This document shows, in pieces, positions 31,562 through 42,640 of a stretch of DNA of 64,000 bases. The stretch is taken from NCBI GenBank assembly GCA_026394055.1, contig JAPKYZ010000048.1:1-64000 (forward strand), written 5' to 3'. The stretch's first letter is position 1. Every line of letters starts with the position of its first letter. The notes beneath the pieces are model-generated. The model saw nothing but the letters and a program-made list of their open reading frames with translations, made no database searches and was not told where the DNA came from. Both the position numbers and the translations under genes were made by a program. This DNA is from Acidobacteriota bacterium. GTDB taxonomy: Bacteria > Acidobacteriota > Terriglobia > Bryobacterales > Bryobacteraceae.

Positions 31562-32857
31562 ATGCTGAACACGACCCGAATTGGCATCGCACTGGCCCTT
31601 GCCCTACCGTTGGCCGCTGGTGTGACGGAAGCGCAGCGGGCCAAGATTGACGAGGTCACCGGCGCCAAGGGCACCTACACCGCCGCCGAGGATGTCTACC
31701 GGGTGACGTTTCCGCGCACCGATGTGAAGGTGGCGATTGAGGGCCGGGCCATGCATCCGTTTCTCGGGCTTACCTCGTGGGCGGCCTTCACCGCAAACGG
31801 ACAAGGCGGCGTGATGGTGACGGGTGATCTGGTGCTGTTTGAGGACGAGGTGAACCCGGTGATGTCCGCCGCGCTCGAGCAAGGTCTAGAGGTCACCGCG
31901 CTTCACAACCACTTCTTTTATGAAACGCCGCGCGTGATGTTCATGCATATTGGCGGCACTGGACCGGCGGAGCAGCTGGCGGCGGCCGTGCGCAAGGCGC
32001 TCAACCAGGTGAAGGCCGTGCGCTCCTCTCGCCCCAGCCCGGCGCCGGGATTTGGCGGCTCCCCGGTTCCTGAGGCGAGCTCCATCACCGCCTCGGTGAT
32101 CGATGGCATCTTGGGGGTCAAGGGGCAGGCAAACGCGGGGATGTACAAGGCTCAGCTGGGCCGCCAGGCCACCATGCACGGTCAAGCGGTGGGCAATCAG
32201 ATGGGTGTTAATACGTGGGCGGCATTTGCTGGAACGGACGAGGTGGCGTTTGTCGATGGCGACTTCGCCATGCTGATCTCCGAGGTCCAACCCGTGCTGA
32301 AGGCGTTGCGCCAGGCGGGCGTGAACATTGTGGCCCTCCACAACCACATGACGCATGAGCAGCCGCAGTATGTCTTTCTGCACTACTGGGGCAAAGGGCC
32401 GGCTCCGAAATTGGCGCAGGCGGTCAAGGCAGGCCTGGACGCGCAGCAACCCAAGCAGGCCGGGCGCATTGTGTTCGTCTGTGAGCACGGCGCCGCCCGC
32501 AGCGTGATCGCCGCGGCGTACTTCAACAAGCTGGCCGCCGAACGCGGTCTCCCGCACCGCGCCATCACGCGGGGCACGGTGCCCGATGCCGAATTTGGAG
32601 CTGTGACAGTAGCGGGTCTTCGCGCCGACGGCATCCCCCTCCCGCCCGGCAAGCCGCAGTTAGTGGGCGTCAGTGATCTTACTGGCGCGGAGGAAGTGGT
32701 GACGTTCGCGGTCAACCTGCCGGACGGTCTGCCTGCCGTGAAGCGCGTCGATTGGGCCAACATTCCCGGCCCGACCGCGGACTACACCGGGGCACGCAAT
32801 GCCATTGAAGCTCGTGTGCGAGCCCTGATTGACGAGCTAGCCGCGGCTCACCACTAG
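31562..32857 (+). CDS. DUF1259-DUF1259-LMW phosphatase fusion
   Basis: A 431-residue secreted protein with a signal peptide (1-24). Two DUF1259 repeats follow. Repeat one (about 25-150) has WAAFTANGQGGVMVTGDLVL and ALHNHFFYETPRVMFMHIGG (core LHNHFFYETPR). Repeat two (about 175-295) has WAAFAGTDEVAFVDGDFAML and ALHNHMTHEQPQYVFLHYWG. The C-terminal part (about 300-430) is a low-molecular-weight phosphatase/arsenate-reductase-like domain with the CX5R loop CEHGAARS (Cys307, Arg313). The two His-rich DUF1259 parts may bind metal. A function linking all three parts is not known. Confidence 0.85.
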   Translation: MLNTTRIGIALALALPLAAGVTEAQRAKIDEVTGAKGTYTAAEDVYRVTFPRTDVKVAIEGRAMHPFLGLTSWAAFTANGQGGVMVTGDLVLFEDEVNPVMSAALEQGLEVTALHNHFFYETPRVMFMHIGGTGPAEQLAAAVRKALNQVKAVRSSRPSPAPGFGGSPVPEASSITASVIDGILGVKGQANAGMYKAQLGRQATMHGQAVGNQMGVNTWAAFAGTDEVAFVDGDFAMLISEVQPVLKALRQAGVNIVALHNHMTHEQPQYVFLHYWGKGPAPKLAQAVKAGLDAQQPKQAGRIVFVCEHGAARSVIAAAYFNKLAAERGLPHRAITRGTVPDAEFGAVTVAGLRADGIPLPPGKPQLVGVSDLTGAEEVVTFAVNLPDGLPAVKRVDWANIPGPTADYTGARNAIEARVRALIDELAAAHH

Positions 32858-34545: not shown

Positions 34546-35403
34546 CTACTTGGTGGCCGCGAGATTCGGTTCCATGAACTCGACACGCGTGCCGTCGGGG
34601 TCAAACAGGTTCGAGAGCCAACGCTTGTTGCGCCCAATGCGCGGGCGATGCCGGTCATTGTCAGCTACGCCCCGGATCTTCAGGCGGCGCCAGGTCTCCT
34701 GAATGTCGGGGGTTTCCAGGCAGATGTGCTGCATGCTGCCCAGTTGATCCGGCGTAGGCGCTTGGCCGCGGGTCAACATTAGCTCAATGTAGTCGCCCCG
34801 TGTGCCGGGCATGCGGAGGTTGATCCAGCTGATGGTCGAATCGTTGGGTCCGCCGCGCCAGAATTCCGTGAAGCCCAGCTTGTCGCGATAAAAGGCCAGT
34901 GATTTGGCTTCGTCGGCCACGGTGATGCCGGTGTGCGACAGGCGGCTCGACAGACGGCTTTTGGAGACGGCCCAGGTCCGCCGGCCGGCGATGGTCGACG
35001 TGCGGACCACCTCGACAAAGTCGATGCGGTGGCCATCGGGGTCCGTCACGGAGGTGTACCAGGTGCCGTCGGGGGCGGTGCGGGTTTCGGTGGATTGAAG
35101 GCCGCGTTCGGTGAGCGCTTTGCGAGTCTCGGCGACGCTTCCCACTTCGATGGCCAAATGCGAAAACCGGTCCGGCTGCCCCTTTTTTCCGCCATCCAGC
35201 GTCACCGCGTACTGGTCGTCGTTCACCTTGTAGTAGGTGGCGCCTTGCGCGTTGAACGCCTCGGAGAAGCCCAAAATGCCCGTATAGAACTCCCGCGCCC
35301 GGTTGGTCTCGGTGACGCGGAAGGCCGAATACAGGATGCCTTGAATGGGAAGCTCAGCCGCCGAAGTGGCGGTGAGCGCCAACAGCACGGCGGCGATTCT
35401 CAT
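34546..35403 (-). CDS. Secreted double-domain VOC protein
   Basis: A 285-residue protein with a signal peptide (MRIAAVLLALTATSAAEL). Two glyoxalase/VOC domains are present. The first (about 22-135) has FRVTETNRAREFYTGILGF and SVTDPDGHRIDFVEV. The second (about 150-280) has HTGITVADEAKSLAFYRDKL and LFDPDGTRVEFMEP. Paired His/Glu ligands (HTG, EFME) suggest a metal centre. The ATG overlaps the FmdB stop (ATGA), so it is the last gene of the S41-FmdB-VOC operon. Secreted VOC proteins are uncommon and no substrate is known. Confidence 0.85.
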   Translation of the reverse strand: MRIAAVLLALTATSAAELPIQGILYSAFRVTETNRAREFYTGILGFSEAFNAQGATYYKVNDDQYAVTLDGGKKGQPDRFSHLAIEVGSVAETRKALTERGLQSTETRTAPDGTWYTSVTDPDGHRIDFVEVVRTSTIAGRRTWAVSKSRLSSRLSHTGITVADEAKSLAFYRDKLGFTEFWRGGPNDSTISWINLRMPGTRGDYIELMLTRGQAPTPDQLGSMQHICLETPDIQETWRRLKIRGVADNDRHRPRIGRNKRWLSNLFDPDGTRVEFMEPNLAATK

Positions 35404-35738
35404 TTGGCGGGGGCGGCTGCCGGGGCGGCCGGTTTAGATTCGGAGGTGGACGGAGCGCTGGCGGGCTTGCTGTCCGCCGAACCTGAACTGGAGGAGCCGG
35501 AATCACCACTGCTCGACTTGGATTCACTGGAACTGGAGCCGCCACTCTTGCTGGCGCCCGAGTACCCATCCTTGTACCAGCCGCTGCCCTTCAAATGGAA
35601 CGCAGGCGTCGAAATCAGCCGGTCCACCGCGTTGGGCTGGCCACATAATTCACAGGTGGTCAACGGCTCATCGGAGAACTTCTGCAACTTGTCAAAATGC
35701 TGACCACACAACCGGCACTTGTATTCGTAAAGAGGCAT
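35400..35738 (-). CDS. FmdB-type zinc-ribbon protein
   Basis: A 112-residue protein with an FmdB zinc ribbon at the N-terminus: MPLYEYKCRLCGQHF (Cys8, Cys11) and a second CxxC in TTCELCGQP. The family motif FHLKGSGWYKDGY follows. The last 50 residues are a low-complexity Ser/Ala/Pro/Lys tail. FmdB proteins are proposed regulators or zinc-binding factors of unknown action. It lies between the S41 homologue and the VOC gene. Confidence 0.92.
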   Translation of the reverse strand: MPLYEYKCRLCGQHFDKLQKFSDEPLTTCELCGQPNAVDRLISTPAFHLKGSGWYKDGYSGASKSGGSSSSESKSSSGDSGSSSSGSADSKPASAPSTSESKPAAPAAAPAK

Positions 35739-35762: not shown

Positions 35763-37013
35763 CTATTTCTTCGGTGCGGGCGCGCCCGCGGCCACTTTGG
35801 CCGTTGTCTTGGGTACGCCATTGATCAGGACATCAATCGCCTTCTTCAACAACGGGTCCTCGCCCGTACGCGGCTTCACTTCAGCCGGTTCCGGGGCGGC
35901 CGTGTCATCGTCGCTATCGGCCGGTTCCGGCGCATCCGACATCGGCACGCTAGGCATCACGGCCTTGTCCTGGATGGAGATGCCAGAGGGCGAATAATAC
36001 TTCGCCACCGCCAAAATCAACGCGCTGCCATCGTCGAGCGTGATCGCCTTGCGCAACGCGGCGTCGCCATAGGTGCGTTCACCCACCACTTCGGCCCGCT
36101 TCAAATCGAGCAGTGCCGCGGCGGCCACTTCGGCGGCGGCGGCGGTACCGCGATTGGTGAGCACCACCAGCGGCAGTTTCGTCACCTGCTTTGCGGCCAC
36201 CGCCTCAAAGGTCTGCTTGGTCACTCGCTGGCCCTGCAGATACCCGATCAGGCCTTTGTCCAGAAACAGGTTGGCCAGCGGCATGCCATCTTCGGCGGCA
36301 CCGTAGGCGCAGTTGCGGAGGTCCAGCACCAACCGCTTGGCCCCCTGCTTTTCCAGGTTCTCAATCGCCGACGCGACTTCCTTCACTTTGGCGGGTTCAA
36401 GCGTCTGCAGCGCGATATGGCCCGTCTGATCCGGCAACAACTTCGACTGGACGGCCGGGAACTTGACGTTCGCCCGGGTCAGCGTCACCTTCTGCGATTC
36501 CGGCTTCCGCGTGCGCAGCACCGTAAGGTCGACGGACGAACCGGCATCACCCTTCAACAGAAGTTCAGCGTAAGCCAGCGGCATATCGCGAGTAGCGACG
36601 CCCTTGATCGATTCCAGCATGTCGCCCGTGTTCAACCCGGCCTTGGCGGCGGGCGAGCCGGGGATGGCATCCACCACACCGATGTAGCCGAAGCGCTTCG
36701 ACAGAATCAGGCCGGTGTCGGCGCGCTTCTGGTCCTTCTGCTTTTGGTACTGCTTGAACTGATCGGCGCTCAAGTAGCTAGCATAAGGATCGACGGCTTC
36801 CAGCAGGCCGTTGACGGCGCCCATGGTGACGCCCTTCAGGTCCGGCTCCTCGACGTAGTCGCTCTTGATGCGCTGCAAAACTTCCGTGAAGACCGCGATG
36901 TGCTTATAGGGGTCCTCTGAGGTGGCTCCACGGCCCATGACGGCCCCGGCCAGCAATGCGCCCACCACGACAGTGGAAAATGAAACGAGTGCGATGTTGA
37001 AACGGCGATTCAA
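35763..37013 (-). CDS. S41 (CtpA-like) peptidase homologue, catalytic residues absent
   Basis: A 416-residue exported protein. The N-terminus has one membrane segment (about 6-27). Next come the CtpA N-terminal cap (VDPYASYLSADQF), a PDZ domain with VDAIPGSPAAKAGLNTGDML (core GSPAAKAGLNTGDML), and the S41 domain (about 190-350). In active members the nucleophile motif is G-(S/T)-A-S-A-S-E; here it is GTAAAAE, so the nucleophile position Ala292 is not Ser. The catalytic Lys in TFGKG is replaced by Asp317 (TYGDAAL). It is therefore very likely a pseudo-peptidase. It is the first gene of an operon with FmdB and VOC. Confidence 0.9.
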   Translation of the reverse strand: MNRRFNIALVSFSTVVVGALLAGAVMGRGATSEDPYKHIAVFTEVLQRIKSDYVEEPDLKGVTMGAVNGLLEAVDPYASYLSADQFKQYQKQKDQKRADTGLILSKRFGYIGVVDAIPGSPAAKAGLNTGDMLESIKGVATRDMPLAYAELLLKGDAGSSVDLTVLRTRKPESQKVTLTRANVKFPAVQSKLLPDQTGHIALQTLEPAKVKEVASAIENLEKQGAKRLVLDLRNCAYGAAEDGMPLANLFLDKGLIGYLQGQRVTKQTFEAVAAKQVTKLPLVVLTNRGTAAAAEVAAAALLDLKRAEVVGERTYGDAALRKAITLDDGSALILAVAKYYSPSGISIQDKAVMPSVPMSDAPEPADSDDDTAAPEPAEVKPRTGEDPLLKKAIDVLINGVPKTTAKVAAGAPAPKK

Positions 37014-37058
37014 TGGGTAAACTCCCGCCGCCTAAAGTATAACAGGGTGATTTTGAAC

Positions 37059-39128
37059 ATGATGCGAGCTCTTGTCCTCATCGTCTGCGCGTTGGCCGGC
37101 ACCACCATAGACGCGCAGTGCACGTATTCGGTAACACAATCCAGTTTTTCTGCTCCGGCAGCGGGCACCACCGTCGTGGCGCCGCTGAGTTTAACCGTCA
37201 CCACGCAGTCCGGCTGCACCACCGCCGCCACCTCGCAGGCGGACTGGATCAGCATTGTCAACGCCGCCGGCACCGGCAGCCGCAGCATATCCTTTAGCGT
37301 CACCGGCAACCCCGGCGTCGTCGGGCGTACCGGGCAATGGACGGTGGGCGATAAAACCATCACCGTCACGCAAGCGGCGGACTGCTCCTTTATCTTGACC
37401 CCGGCCTCCGCTTCACTTCCGGCCGCCCGAACGCCCAGCTCGTTCTCGATCAACGCCAGCTCCAACCGCTGCGCCTGGACGGCGGTGCCGCAAGATAGCT
37501 GGCTTTCGATCTCGCTCGGCGGCGCCGGCACCGGCGACGGCACCTCCGGCTACACAGCGGAGCAGAACCTCACCCCCGTGCCCCGAGCCTCGGCCATTGT
37601 GGTGGTGAACAAATCGCATACGGTCAATCAGGCGGCGGGCAATTGCAGCTACACCTACGGCCTCGGGATCCCCGGAATCGTCCCAGCAGACGGCGGCACC
37701 TACAAGCTGCCGATCTCCACCAGTTGCGTCTGGCAAGTCCGGTCCACCGTGGACTGGATCAGCTTCACCTCACCCACCACCGGCACCGGCACGGGCACGG
37801 TGGATGTCGTGATCGCCAAGAACGCCGGGTTCGGGCAGCGGTCCTCCCGGATTGAGAACTGGAACTCGCCCTACACCATCACCCAGTCGGGCCAACCCTG
37901 CGCCATCAGCTTGACGCCCTCTCCGGTCAACTTCACCGCCACCGGGGGGACCACCAGCATCGGCGTCACCGCGCCCTGTCCCTGGACCGCCACTACGACG
38001 ACGCCCTGGATCACGATCGGCACGCCGGCCGCGAATAGTTTTCCGGTGAACGTCGTTCCCAACTCCACCACCGACCGCCGATCCGGCCTGGTCCGCGTCA
38101 ATGACGTGAATCTGGTGGTCACGCAGGACGCTGCCACCTGCGGCTTCAAGCTGACCCCCACCTCCGCCACGCTTTCCTCCGCCGCCACGGCCGAGACCGT
38201 TCAAGTGGAAACACAATGCGCCTGGTCCGCCACCAGCAGCGTTCCCTGGATGCGGGTGACCGAAGCAACGCCGGCGCTGCTGCGCTATGCGGTGGATGCG
38301 AATGTCCTCACCACCTCGCGCACCGGCACGCTGAACCTCACCGGGCGCGTGGGCCAAACCAACGTCCCGGGTCCCGCGTTGACCGTACGCCAAGCTGGCC
38401 AGGGCCCGGCGTTCACCACGGCCGATCTGCGCAACGGGGCCAGCTTCATTGCGGGCTCCGTGTCACCGGGTGAGATCATGACCATCTTCGGCACGGGCTA
38501 CGGTCCGGCACAGTTGGCGGTGCCGGAGATTACACCGGTGACCACCTTCTACCCCACGTCGCTCGCGGGCGTGCGGGTGCTGGTGGACAACATCGCCACG
38601 CCCATCACCGCCACCATTGGCGGGGACCGGCCGCAGGTGAACTTCGTCGTGCCCCAAAGCGTCGCCGGAAAGCGGCAGGTGGAGATTCGCCTGGAACAAA
38701 ACGGCGTCCTGTCTGAGCCCGTCACCGCGGGCGTCACCGCCGCCAACCCGGAGATCTTCGCGCTGACGGTGGAAGGGCAAGGCGCGGTGTTCAACCAGGA
38801 CTACACCGTCAACAGCGTCAGCCAGCCAGCCAAGCAAGAGAGCGTCGTCGCGATATTTGCCACCGGCGGCGGCGTCACCAGCCCGCCCAGTGTCGACGGC
38901 TACATCGTCCAAGGCGAACCACTTCCAAAAACGGTGGCCAAAGTCCAGGTGCTGGCCAACAGCCAGCAGTGCGAAGTCTCCTATGCTGGGGCCGCGCCGC
39001 TTTTGATTTCAGGGGCGTTGCAGGTGAATGCCAAGTTGCCGCCGGGTTTGCCCTCGGGCACCGTGGAGCTCACCTTGATTGTGGGCGAGGTGCGCAGCCA
39101 GCGCCGGATCACCATCCAAGTAGAGTAA
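37059..39128 (+). CDS. BACON-repeat protein with Solibacter-type C-terminal domain
   Basis: A 689-residue secreted protein with a signal peptide ([19 protein letters not shown]). Five BACON-like repeats of about 80 residues follow, each with a leading Cys, a CxWxA-type strand and a Wi-x-I/V motif (for example [42 protein letters not shown]). They end in the recurring V/T-Q-A/S-G step. The C-terminal 215 residues carry the TIGR03437 pattern ([20 protein letters not shown] and later [12 protein letters not shown]). It is probably a surface adhesin or glycan-binding protein. Start ATG 37059 is favoured over GTG 37047. Confidence 0.92.
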
Positions 39129-39162: not shown

Positions 39163-40617
39163 ATGAGCCCGGCGGAACTTCCAGCTCCATTCCGAAACTA
39201 TCAATTGGATGTCGCATGGGACGAGATGTTTTCGCCCGACGGCACGCCACGTCCCCATTACCAGGCGTTGTTTGAGTTGATGCAGCAGTTGCCCGCCGAC
39301 GAAATCCGGCGGCGCAAACAGGCGGCGGACTTGAGCTTCCTCCACCAGGGCATCACGTTCACCGTCTATGGCCGCGATGAAGGCACCGAGCGGATCTTCC
39401 CCCACGACCTGCTGCCGCGCATCATCACCAACTCCGAGTGGAGCAAGATCGAACGCGGTCTCGAACAGCGGATCGTTGCGCTGAACCTGTTCCTCAAAGA
39501 CATCTACAACGAAGGCCGCATTCTCGATGCCGGGATTGTGCCGCGCGAGATGGTCTATTCGTGCAAGCATTTCCGGCGGCAGATGAAGGGCCTGCGGCTG
39601 CCCAAGGATCTCTATATCACCGTCACCGGCACGGACCTGATCCGTCACCCCGATGGCCGGTTTCTGGTGCTCGAAGATAACTTGCGCGTGCCCTCGGGCG
39701 TCAGCTACATGCTCACCTCGCGGCAGGTGATGAAGAAGATCTTCCCGCAGTTGTTCCAGCAGTGCGGCGTCAAGCCCATCGAGGATTACCCGTCGGCGCT
39801 GCTGGCGACCCTCCGCACGCTGGCGCCCTACGGCAAGCATGACCCGACGATCGTGCTGCTGACGCCCGGGGTCTACAACTCGGCCTACTTTGAGCACACC
39901 TATCTCGCCCGCCAGATGGGCATTGAGCTGGTGGAGGGCCGCGACCTGGTGGTGCACGACAACAACGTCTGGATGCGCACCACGGCCGGGTTGAAGCAAG
40001 TGGACGTGATCTACCGGCGCATCGACGACGACTTTATCGATCCGCTGGCGTTCCGCAAGGACACGATCCTGGGCGTCCCAGGCTTGTTCAACGCCTATCG
40101 CGCCGGCAACGTCACGTTGTGCAATGCGCTGGGCACTGGGGTGGCGGACGACAAGGCGCTCTACGCCTACGTGCCGCGGATCATCAAGTACTATCTGGGC
40201 GAAGATCCCATCCTGGACAACGTCGAGACCTACATCTTGACCGACGACGCCGCGCGCCAGCATGTGCTGGCCAATCTCGACAAGCTGGTGGTGAAGGCAG
40301 TGGGCGAATCCGGCGGCTACGGCATGCTGATCGGCCCGCATTCCACCGAGAAGGAGCGCGAGGAGTTCGCCCGCCGCATCACGGCCGACCCGCGCAACTA
40401 CATCGCGCAGCCGACGCTGATGCTCTCGCGCGGCCCCTGCTTTATTGACGGCCAAGTGGAGGCGCGCCACGTCGATCTGCGCCCCTACATTCTGTATGGC
40501 GACAAGGTAACGATTGTGCCCGGGGGCTTGACCCGTGTGGCTTTGCGGAAGGGTTCGCTGGTGGTGAACTCCTCGCAGGGCGGCGGCAGCAAGGACACCT
40601 GGGTGCTGTACGAGTAA
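39163..40617 (+). CDS. Circularly permuted ATP-grasp ligase (DUF404/DUF407 type)
   Basis: A 484-residue protein of the circularly permuted ATP-grasp group (CP-ATPgrasp_1). Hallmarks are [63 protein letters not shown] (core [13 protein letters not shown]) and [17 protein letters not shown]. It is predicted to join an amino group to a carboxylate using ATP. It is followed by alpha-E and transglutaminase genes, the conserved operon proposed to make or modify a peptide. The product is unknown. Confidence 0.93.
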
Positions 40618-40710
40618 CAATGTTGTACAACTAGGCGTGGGCCCGGCCCGCCTGTTCGCCCCGTCCGCGAACCACTTGAAGGATTCGCATACTGATCGAA
40701 CATAACGCCC

Positions 40711-41673
40711 ATGCTCTCTCGCGTCGCAGATAGTCTTTACTGGATGGCCCGCTACCTGGAGCGGGCCGAGCACACCGCCCGTCTGGTGGATGTGCACCTG
40801 AATCTGATGCTGGATCAGTCGCCCATCTCGGCCGAACGGCGCTGGGGAAGGGTGCTGGCCAGCCTCGGCAGTCCGCTGCCGGTGGGTGACGCGGCGGGCG
40901 CTTACTCGCACGTCCAGGCGATGGTGTTTGACGCCGCCACGCGCTCTTCCATCGTCTCCTGCATCATGCACGCCCGTGAAAATCTGCGGCAGGTGCGCGA
41001 GCAGATCTCAAGCGAAATGTGGGAACAGCTCAACCGCATGTTCCACGCCGTCCGGCGGGTGCAGTACGAAGAAATGCACGACGCGCACCCGGTGGAGTTT
41101 CTGGCCGCCATTCGGGAAGGGACCCACCTGTTCCAGGGCGTCACCGATTCCACCATGACGCATGGCGAAGGCTGGCAGTTTATCCAGATCGGACGGGCAC
41201 TCGAACGGGCCCGCTGCGTGGCCACGTTGCTCGACGTGCACTTCAACGAATTCTACGTGCCCAGCGACCATCACCAGGAAGCGGTGGACCATCTGGAATG
41301 GATCGGCCTCTTGCGCTCCTGCACCGCCTTTGAGGCCTACTGCAAGGCCTACACGGCCGACCTGTCACCGGAGCGCATTGTCGAGTTTCTGCTGCTGAAC
41401 AGCGAGTTTCCCCATTCGGTCCGTTTCTCGGTGGACATGCTGCAAGCGGCGCTGAATGCCTTGCCGGAAGCGACGGCGTCCAAGAAGGCCGGCCGCGTCT
41501 CCCGCCTGGCTGGGCGGTTGCGGGCCTCACTCAGCTTTACGCCCGTCGATGAGATCATGCTGGGCGGCATTCACGGGTACCTGGATGGCATCCAGCGCCA
41601 GTGCGGCCAGATCCACGCTTCTGCCTACCAGGGCTACATCGACTATCCCATCGACACCGCGGTGCTCGCCTAA
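40711..41673 (+). CDS. Alpha-E domain protein (DUF403)
   Basis: A 320-residue all-helical protein. The N-terminus MLSRVADSLYWMARYLERAEHTARL, cited as LYWMARYLERAEH, is the family hallmark. Further conserved parts are ARENLRQVREQISSEMWEQL and RALERARCVATLLDV, with its E/D-rich helices. It always co-occurs with a permuted ATP-grasp and often a transglutaminase. It lies 93 bases after the ATP-grasp gene and 4 bases before the transglutaminase gene. Its role in the ligase complex is unproven. Confidence 0.92.
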   Translation: MLSRVADSLYWMARYLERAEHTARLVDVHLNLMLDQSPISAERRWGRVLASLGSPLPVGDAAGAYSHVQAMVFDAATRSSIVSCIMHARENLRQVREQISSEMWEQLNRMFHAVRRVQYEEMHDAHPVEFLAAIREGTHLFQGVTDSTMTHGEGWQFIQIGRALERARCVATLLDVHFNEFYVPSDHHQEAVDHLEWIGLLRSCTAFEAYCKAYTADLSPERIVEFLLLNSEFPHSVRFSVDMLQAALNALPEATASKKAGRVSRLAGRLRASLSFTPVDEIMLGGIHGYLDGIQRQCGQIHASAYQGYIDYPIDTAVLA

Positions 41674-41677
41674 CGCC

Positions 41678-42640
41678 ATGTACTACTCCATCCGCCACCT
41701 CACCCGCTTCAAGTACGACTCTCCGGTGCAGGAAAGCATCATGGAGGTTCGCAAGCAACCGCGCTCGGAAGGCTTGCAGCTGTGCTTGTCGTTCGATTTG
41801 ACCGTCAGCCCCAAGGCGCGCGTGCTGCAGTATCGCGACTATCTGGGCAACACCATCCACCACTTCAACGTGCCCGGCAAACACACGCAGCTCCAGGTGC
41901 TGGCGGAGGCTCGCGTTGAAACCGGCGCCGCTCCCATGCTGCCGCCGCGCTTGGGTTATGACGCCTGGGGCGAGCTTGACCACATCGTCCACAACGGCGA
42001 CTACTCCGAGTTCCTGATGCCCAGCGATTTCGCCAAGCCGACGCCCTGGTTGAATGAACTGGCTGAGGAGCTGAATGTGGTCCGCCGCGATGATCCGCTC
42101 ACTGTGCTGGCGGAGGTGAACAGCGGCATCTTCAGCGCCTTCGACTACGTCCCCAAATCGACCAAGGTCGACTCTCCCATTGATGACGCGCTCAAGGCTC
42201 GCAAGGGCGTCTGCCAGGACTTCACGCACATCATGACCTCGCTGGTCCGGCAATACCTGCGGGTCCCTTGCCGCTATGTCAGCGGCTACCTCTACCACGG
42301 CCGCTTTGACCACGACCGCTCCGCCGACGGCGCCACGCACGCCTGGGTGGAGGCTCTGCTGCCGGGCCTGGGCTGGATTGGCCTGGACCCCACCAACAAC
42401 CTGCTCGCCGGCGAACGCCACATCCGCACCGCCATCGGCCGCGACTACAACGACGTGCCCCCCACACACGGCGTCTTCAAAGGCAACGCCCGCAGCGAGC
42501 TCTCCGTCTCCGTGCACGTCACGCCCACGGATACACCGCTCCCGCTCGATGTCGAGATGCTTTCTCCGATGGCCTTCATCGTGCCGCCCGAGGAAGAAGA
42601 AGCGCAACTGGCTCAGCAGCAACAGCAGCAACAGCAGTAA
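41678..42640 (+). CDS. Transglutaminase-like protein with poly-Gln tail
   Basis: A 320-residue protein from ATG 41678. After the N-terminal domain (YYSIRHLTRFKYDSPVQES) comes the papain-like transglutaminase core: KGVCQDFTHIM with the active Cys, THAWVEALLPGLGWIGLDPTN with His and Asp. The last 30 residues are Glu- and Gln-rich and end in eight consecutive Gln codons (CAG/CAA). It completes the ATP-grasp/alpha-E operon and likely acts as a peptidase or amidotransferase on the ligase product. The tail and its coding repeat are unusual for the family. Confidence 0.92.
   Translation: MYYSIRHLTRFKYDSPVQESIMEVRKQPRSEGLQLCLSFDLTVSPKARVLQYRDYLGNTIHHFNVPGKHTQLQVLAEARVETGAAPMLPPRLGYDAWGELDHIVHNGDYSEFLMPSDFAKPTPWLNELAEELNVVRRDDPLTVLAEVNSGIFSAFDYVPKSTKVDSPIDDALKARKGVCQDFTHIMTSLVRQYLRVPCRYVSGYLYHGRFDHDRSADGATHAWVEALLPGLGWIGLDPTNNLLAGERHIRTAIGRDYNDVPPTHGVFKGNARSELSVSVHVTPTDTPLPLDVEMLSPMAFIVPPEEEEAQLAQQQQQQQQ

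Follow-up and report, generated by a model that had tools for sequence, protein, structure and literature searches.

CtpA-type proteases control cell-wall enzymes by destroying them, and the gene described here raises the question of what such a protein might do once the residues needed for cutting have been replaced. The gene lies in a window of 64,000 nucleotides (the whole stretch of DNA analyzed, positions 1 to 64,000 of contig JAPKYZ010000048.1) from an Acidobacteriota bacterium of the family Bryobacteraceae. Its product consists, in order, of an N-terminal hydrophobic helix, an N-terminal domain, a PDZ domain, the S41 core and a C-terminal helix, placed in the window as follows:

35763..37013, minus strand: pseudo-CtpA gene for an S41/PDZ protein of 416 amino acids, TTG start (open reading frame, Pfam, AlphaFold)
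36936..37007, minus strand: hydrophobic N-terminal helix, residues 3-26, probable inner-membrane anchor (helix from AlphaFold and sequence, membrane role inferred)
36480..36689, minus strand: PDZ domain, residues 109-178 (Pfam)
35946..36425, minus strand: S41 core, residues 197-356 (Pfam)
35820..35855, minus strand: C-terminal helix, residues 387-398, with conserved EDxxLKKAIxVL (AlphaFold, alignment, structure match)

With this layout the protein would be anchored in the membrane, its PDZ and S41 domains facing the periplasm, and the C-terminal helix presumably corresponds to the region that holds the C-terminal dimerization helix of CtpA. The initial annotation had noted that the PDZ and S41 architecture is kept, and this is borne out by Pfam, where S41 (PF03572) scores 114.2 bits against a gathering cut-off of 24 and PDZ_6 scores 41 bits, also above its cut-off; the C-terminal processing peptidase model TIGR00225 (prc) is narrowly missed (217.4 bits against a curated cut-off of 218.6). 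The AlphaFold model, built with 64 relatives alongside the window protein, reaches a mean pLDDT of 84.9, and its best structural match family is Helicobacter pylori CtpA (VIA-align Z 35.5, rmsd 3.4, 336 residues), which includes the S300A/K325A/Q329A structure 9ku3; judging from the title of that mutant structure, wild-type H. pylori CtpA has the catalytic residues. CtpA of Pseudomonas aeruginosa, which we take to be PA5134, shares the fold, the PDZ domain and the N- and C-terminal regions with the window protein (structures 7rpq and 8sxe-8sxh), and in its complex with LbcA it matches the model at Z 34.9 (rmsd 3.9, 341 residues). CtpB scores Z 33.1 when it is resting (4c2e) but Z 23.2 when it is active (4c2c), a difference that suggests, and does no more than suggest, that the model has a resting shape. 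IRBP (retinol-binding protein 3; 4lur, 9frx), an animal ligand-binding protein with the S41 fold but without protease function, is a far weaker match (Z 17.0 versus 35.5).

Whereas the fold is shared with P. aeruginosa CtpA, the active site is not. Residues were paired by profile alignment to 7rpq, with a chain offset of 33 worked out in this analysis, and the loop was placed by alignment:

36783..36785, minus strand: Tyr77, where P. aeruginosa CtpA has His84
36300..36314, minus strand: NCAYG, residues 234-238, where active members have the NPGG loop
36138..36140, minus strand: Ala292, where P. aeruginosa CtpA has the nucleophile Ser302
36063..36065, minus strand: Asp317, where P. aeruginosa CtpA has the general base Lys327
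36051..36053, minus strand: Arg321, where P. aeruginosa CtpA has Gln331

Neither the serine nucleophile nor the lysine general base that characterizes a functional CtpA is thus present, as had been proposed from the motifs GTAAAAE and TYGDA, which we find at residues 289-295 and 314-318. In P. aeruginosa, according to PMC11021448, S302A and likewise K327A abolish CtpA activity in vivo, while H84A lowers it and Q331A has a minor effect. Because the window protein carries Ala and Asp at the two residues whose substitution abolishes activity, it is predicted from its sequence to be catalytically dead at both essential positions, and since the NPGG loop and the histidine are replaced as well, more than two active-site features are gone. 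The further claim that four alanines stand where two serines are expected holds only in part: the nucleophile, which is the fourth residue of the motif alone, did change from Ser to Ala, but the second Ser is not a strict expectation, given that P. aeruginosa CtpA itself reads GSASAAE, and the alanine run is local to the window protein, two relatives of the same genus having GTAAGAE. The engineered S302A mutant of P. aeruginosa CtpA (7rqh) also has Ala at the nucleophile, and its GSAAAAE is one residue away from GTAAAAE; unlike this laboratory mutant, in which Lys and Gln are intact, the window protein represents a natural, ancient and more extensive loss.

The loss is not confined to one gene. 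With the window protein as query, and counting the window's own genome, an orthologue scoring well above the paralogues was found in 96 of 101 near genomes (95 at no less than 237 bits, and one whose gene is divided between two contigs) but not in the other five (G007, G047, G075, G082 and G093). We then have 216 distinct Acidobacteriota relatives, comprising 117 from the window's family, 34 from family f11, 17 from f3, 2 from f9, 16 from other families of the class and 30 from other classes; the 30 loci L218-L247 were picked for family diversity and not for catalytic state. Ser is kept in 20 of the 216 and Lys in 3, and only 2 keep both, leaving 18 with Ser but no Lys and one with Lys but no Ser. 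An isolated mutation is therefore ruled out, as Lys is missing from 213 relatives and Ser from 196, and the suggestion that the loss is common to a clade of related S41 members is upheld. The replacement residues differ from lineage to lineage, with Asp at the Lys position in 104/117 members of the window's family, Glu in 24/34 of f11 and Leu in 15/17 of f3. No Ser-Lys pair was found in 19 further deep-branching loci (L288-L306), where one has Ser alone and one Lys alone. The nearest named relatives, among the best 80 of 530 and all near the window, are filed under the lineage Bryobacteraceae, Terriglobia, Acidobacteriota. In the open-access literature (subscription journals are mostly not covered), we found no description of a dead S41/CtpA family from this phylum.

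Active CtpA-type proteins exist in the same organisms. Ten S41 regions are present in the window genome, and two paralogues, L001 on a different contig and L002 on the window's own contig at a distance of about 40 kb, have the S41 and PDZ domains of the window protein but retain the full set of His, Ser, Lys and Gln. A further S41 protein of another subfamily (L004, contig C69) has Ala instead of Lys at the aligned base position, in an uncertain alignment. The long active paralogues, of about 480-530 amino acids, form a separate clade, and all 22 used as the active outgroup keep both Ser and Lys. Dead rows were split from the active paralogues at SH-aLRT 99 in one tree and 100/100 in a second, both built without the active-site columns. 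Outside the window's class, a second S41 copy of roughly 400 amino acids occurs in 19 of 23 genomes, and none of comparable score was found in the other four (G101, G104, G132 and G227). Pairwise dN/dS among the dead genes ranges from 0.024 to 0.132 in 19 pairs, which points to purifying selection and together with the intact fold argues for a maintained pseudoprotease family and not for decay; we hold this conclusion with high confidence, and it agrees with the original view that the loss was selected, all the more as the loss is shared by a clade.

One family of the window's class, f9, departs from this pattern. In all 12 of its genomes, from four genera, the orthologues (L308-L319, L096 and L099) carry the Ser-Lys-Gln set, together with a Tyr retained where His would stand and, for the most part, NC-type loops in place of NPGG. 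Away from the active site, f9 resembles the dead proteins: over 36 signature columns, six f9 rows match the active consensus at 9-13 positions, compared to 4-10 for dead rows of the class, 3-15 for dead rows of other classes and 21-36 for active rows; the f9 mean of 10.7 is somewhat above the means of 6.7 and 7.4 for dead rows. A careful tree with these six rows from four genera nests f9 in the dead clade (97/90), but AU tests on it reject neither f9 outside the dead clade (p-AU 0.18) nor f9 joined with the rest of its class (p 0.415), and an earlier test on a quick tree with two f9 rows had preferred the outside placement (by 14 in log-likelihood, p 0.70). As a tree with f9 outside is not rejected, f9 may be a late survivor that retained its active site from ancient times or a re-evolved protease, the trees deciding for neither. 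A tentative scenario, which we consider rather doubtful, has the cell-wall pseudoprotease originate a single time in the ancestor of the phylum and f9 then regain its Ser-Lys-Gln active site, a natural resurrection. In any case, f9 offers a rare comparison of dead with apparently revived or surviving members.

If the protein does not cut, its neighbors may indicate what it binds. Two genes follow it in the window:

35400..35738, minus strand: FmdB zinc-ribbon gene, directly downstream, a conserved neighbor only in the window's family (Pfam)
34546..35403, minus strand: VOC/glyoxalase-fold gene with a 4-base overlap at the FmdB stop, a nearly genus-specific neighbor (Pfam)

Counting only loci with at least 400 bp of downstream sequence, 86 of the 109 in the window's family have FmdB as the next gene downstream and none of the 97 elsewhere does; the VOC gene is found beside the dead gene only in the window's genus and at L063. 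The alignment of related S41 members that the initial annotation had proposed as a check hence yields the expected shared loss, but the FmdB linkage expected along with it is restricted to one family. FmdB starts with MPLYEYKC and, as it has no visible signal peptide, is probably cytosolic, while the pseudo-CtpA protein would be periplasmic. After its zinc ribbon, FmdB has a long tail rich in Ser, Gly, Ala and Pro.

Across the phylum, the conserved neighbors are peptidoglycan genes. (The names EnvC, SddA, PBP1A, MltG and RuvX are backed in each case by Pfam tests of one to three members and by BLAST clustering; KdsB, ThrS, IF3, HU and others are presumptive names given from the sequence.) Of the 19 deep loci, 14 have an EnvC-like M23 gene immediately before the dead gene and 13 a PF04748 gene immediately after it; 10 have both and 2 neither. 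The P. aeruginosa operon order is envC-ctpA-PA5135 (PMC12569750), and SddA, the Escherichia coli member of PF04748, is a peptidoglycan deacetylase working at the septum (PMC12440217). The dead gene in these lineages thus occupies the operon position of active P. aeruginosa ctpA, between envC and sddA, and the envC-ctpA-PF04748 order of that organism is matched in deep relatives of the window gene. Of the 101 near genomes, eight contain PF04748, and its coordinates place it beside the dead gene in every one of them. At the window locus itself the envC and PF04748 flanks of this operon are absent; the window gene would nevertheless descend, according to the tree, from an envC-flanked lineage. 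The window's own family yielded no PF04748 gene, and the FtsX ectodomain gave no match above cut-off in the 31 genomes searched (one match was below threshold), so the ancestral partners are probably gone in this family.

Other lineages have other cell-wall genes at this place. Of the 34 loci in f11, which comprises Acidobacteriaceae-type genomes, 27 have a gene for penicillin-binding protein 1A (Transgly and Transpeptidase domains) downstream within 300 bp, and three more have it about 1.07 kb away, counted by hand. In f11 genomes (L200, L202-L204, L206-L212, L217 and L253), what is presumably a KdsB-like gene lies divergently upstream. MltG, usually with RuvX, is found within 2 kb upstream in 18 of 30 loci from other classes, again counted by hand, and this RuvX-MltG neighborhood could be incidental. 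Some members of the window's family have a lytic transglycosylase gene (SLT) upstream (cluster c14, 10 loci).

The occurrence of a dead copy in nearly all Acidobacteriota examined, near cell-wall genes in many lineages, suggests a binding scaffold and not an enzyme. We propose that a CtpA-type S41 protein ceased to be a protease early in the history of Acidobacteriota and that binding is what has preserved it since. The pseudo-CtpA would retain the oligomer of CtpA and the tunnel formed with the PDZ domain for substrates, and could capture C-termini or partners without cutting them, by which peptidoglycan hydrolases and synthases may be positioned or regulated. Cell-wall enzymes are the best guess for its clients because peptidoglycan genes recur beside the dead gene: the ancestral ones may have been the EnvC-amidase-SddA septum-splitting module, and penicillin-binding protein 1A is probably the client in Acidobacteriaceae-type genomes. 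Taken as a whole, an anchored periplasmic pseudoprotease kept for binding is an explanation that we find reasonably probable; for the narrower claim that its work is to scaffold peptidoglycan enzymes as a non-proteolytic PDZ scaffold, we would put the chances at about even.

Several other explanations have to be weighed against this proposal. The most serious is that the dead protein is a regulatory subunit, forming mixed dimers or hexamers with an active paralogue (L001 or L002) and thereby tuning or limiting it. It is serious since only one CtpA of each P. aeruginosa dimer is activated, as described in PMC11021448, which makes a dead partner mechanically plausible; in addition, paralogues with His, Ser, Lys and Gln are at hand in the same genome, and the N- and C-terminal regions of the dead protein are conserved. 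Yet the dead and active proteins are only about 31% identical and fall into separate ancient clades, and their genes are not adjacent in the window genome, so that we regard such pairing as unlikely. The partnership first suggested, a peptide-binding adaptor or inhibitor that acts with FmdB and the VOC protein, fares worse. A binding role is plausible, and the three genes are tightly spaced on one strand, with FmdB conserved as neighbor within the family, but its absence from all 97 loci outside that family, the nearly genus-specific occurrence of the VOC gene and the apparent lack of a signal peptide on FmdB lead us to reject this partnership as the core function; as a general reading it is not supported, and we think it highly improbable.

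It may also be asked whether the protein is still an enzyme with a rearranged active site, as Thr290 and Glu295 are near-invariant in the dead set and Ser is kept in some members (20/216). Active members, however, share Glu295 and likewise carry Ser or Thr at position 290, and among 79 dead rows no newly conserved Lys or Ser appears in the S41 core; the alternative Ser-Lys pair that would have spoken against a dead protein is thus missing from the newly conserved residues, conservation being the sole means by which it was sought. We therefore consider a rearranged enzyme very unlikely. Random decay of an unneeded gene would fit the variation of replacement residues among lineages, but phylum-wide retention, open frames, a confidently predicted fold and dN/dS values far below 1 leave it a negligible chance, and a pseudogene is ruled out by the range of 0.024-0.132 in the 19 pairs.

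The original observation at this locus is upheld, and it now covers a pseudoprotease family found throughout the phylum. That a dead version is kept throughout the phylum, in deep lineages at the envC-ctpA-sddA position, indicates that a non-cutting job, such as binding, holding or assembling, can suffice, and the family offers a natural experiment on the functions of CtpA other than cutting. Annotations are likely to list the dead proteins wrongly as active proteases, since sequence scores still assign them to the S41 peptidases.

The surroundings of the gene contain three further features on the plus strand. Divergently transcribed and adjoining the pseudo-CtpA gene is that of a secreted-looking protein with BACON domains (37047-39128), which is followed at 39163-42640 by three consecutive genes for a circularly permuted ATP-grasp, an Alpha-E and a transglutaminase-like protein, the third ending in a run of Gln. 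At 31562-32857, two DUF1259 stretches precede a C-terminal part that, as we presume, resembles a low-molecular-weight phosphatase motif.
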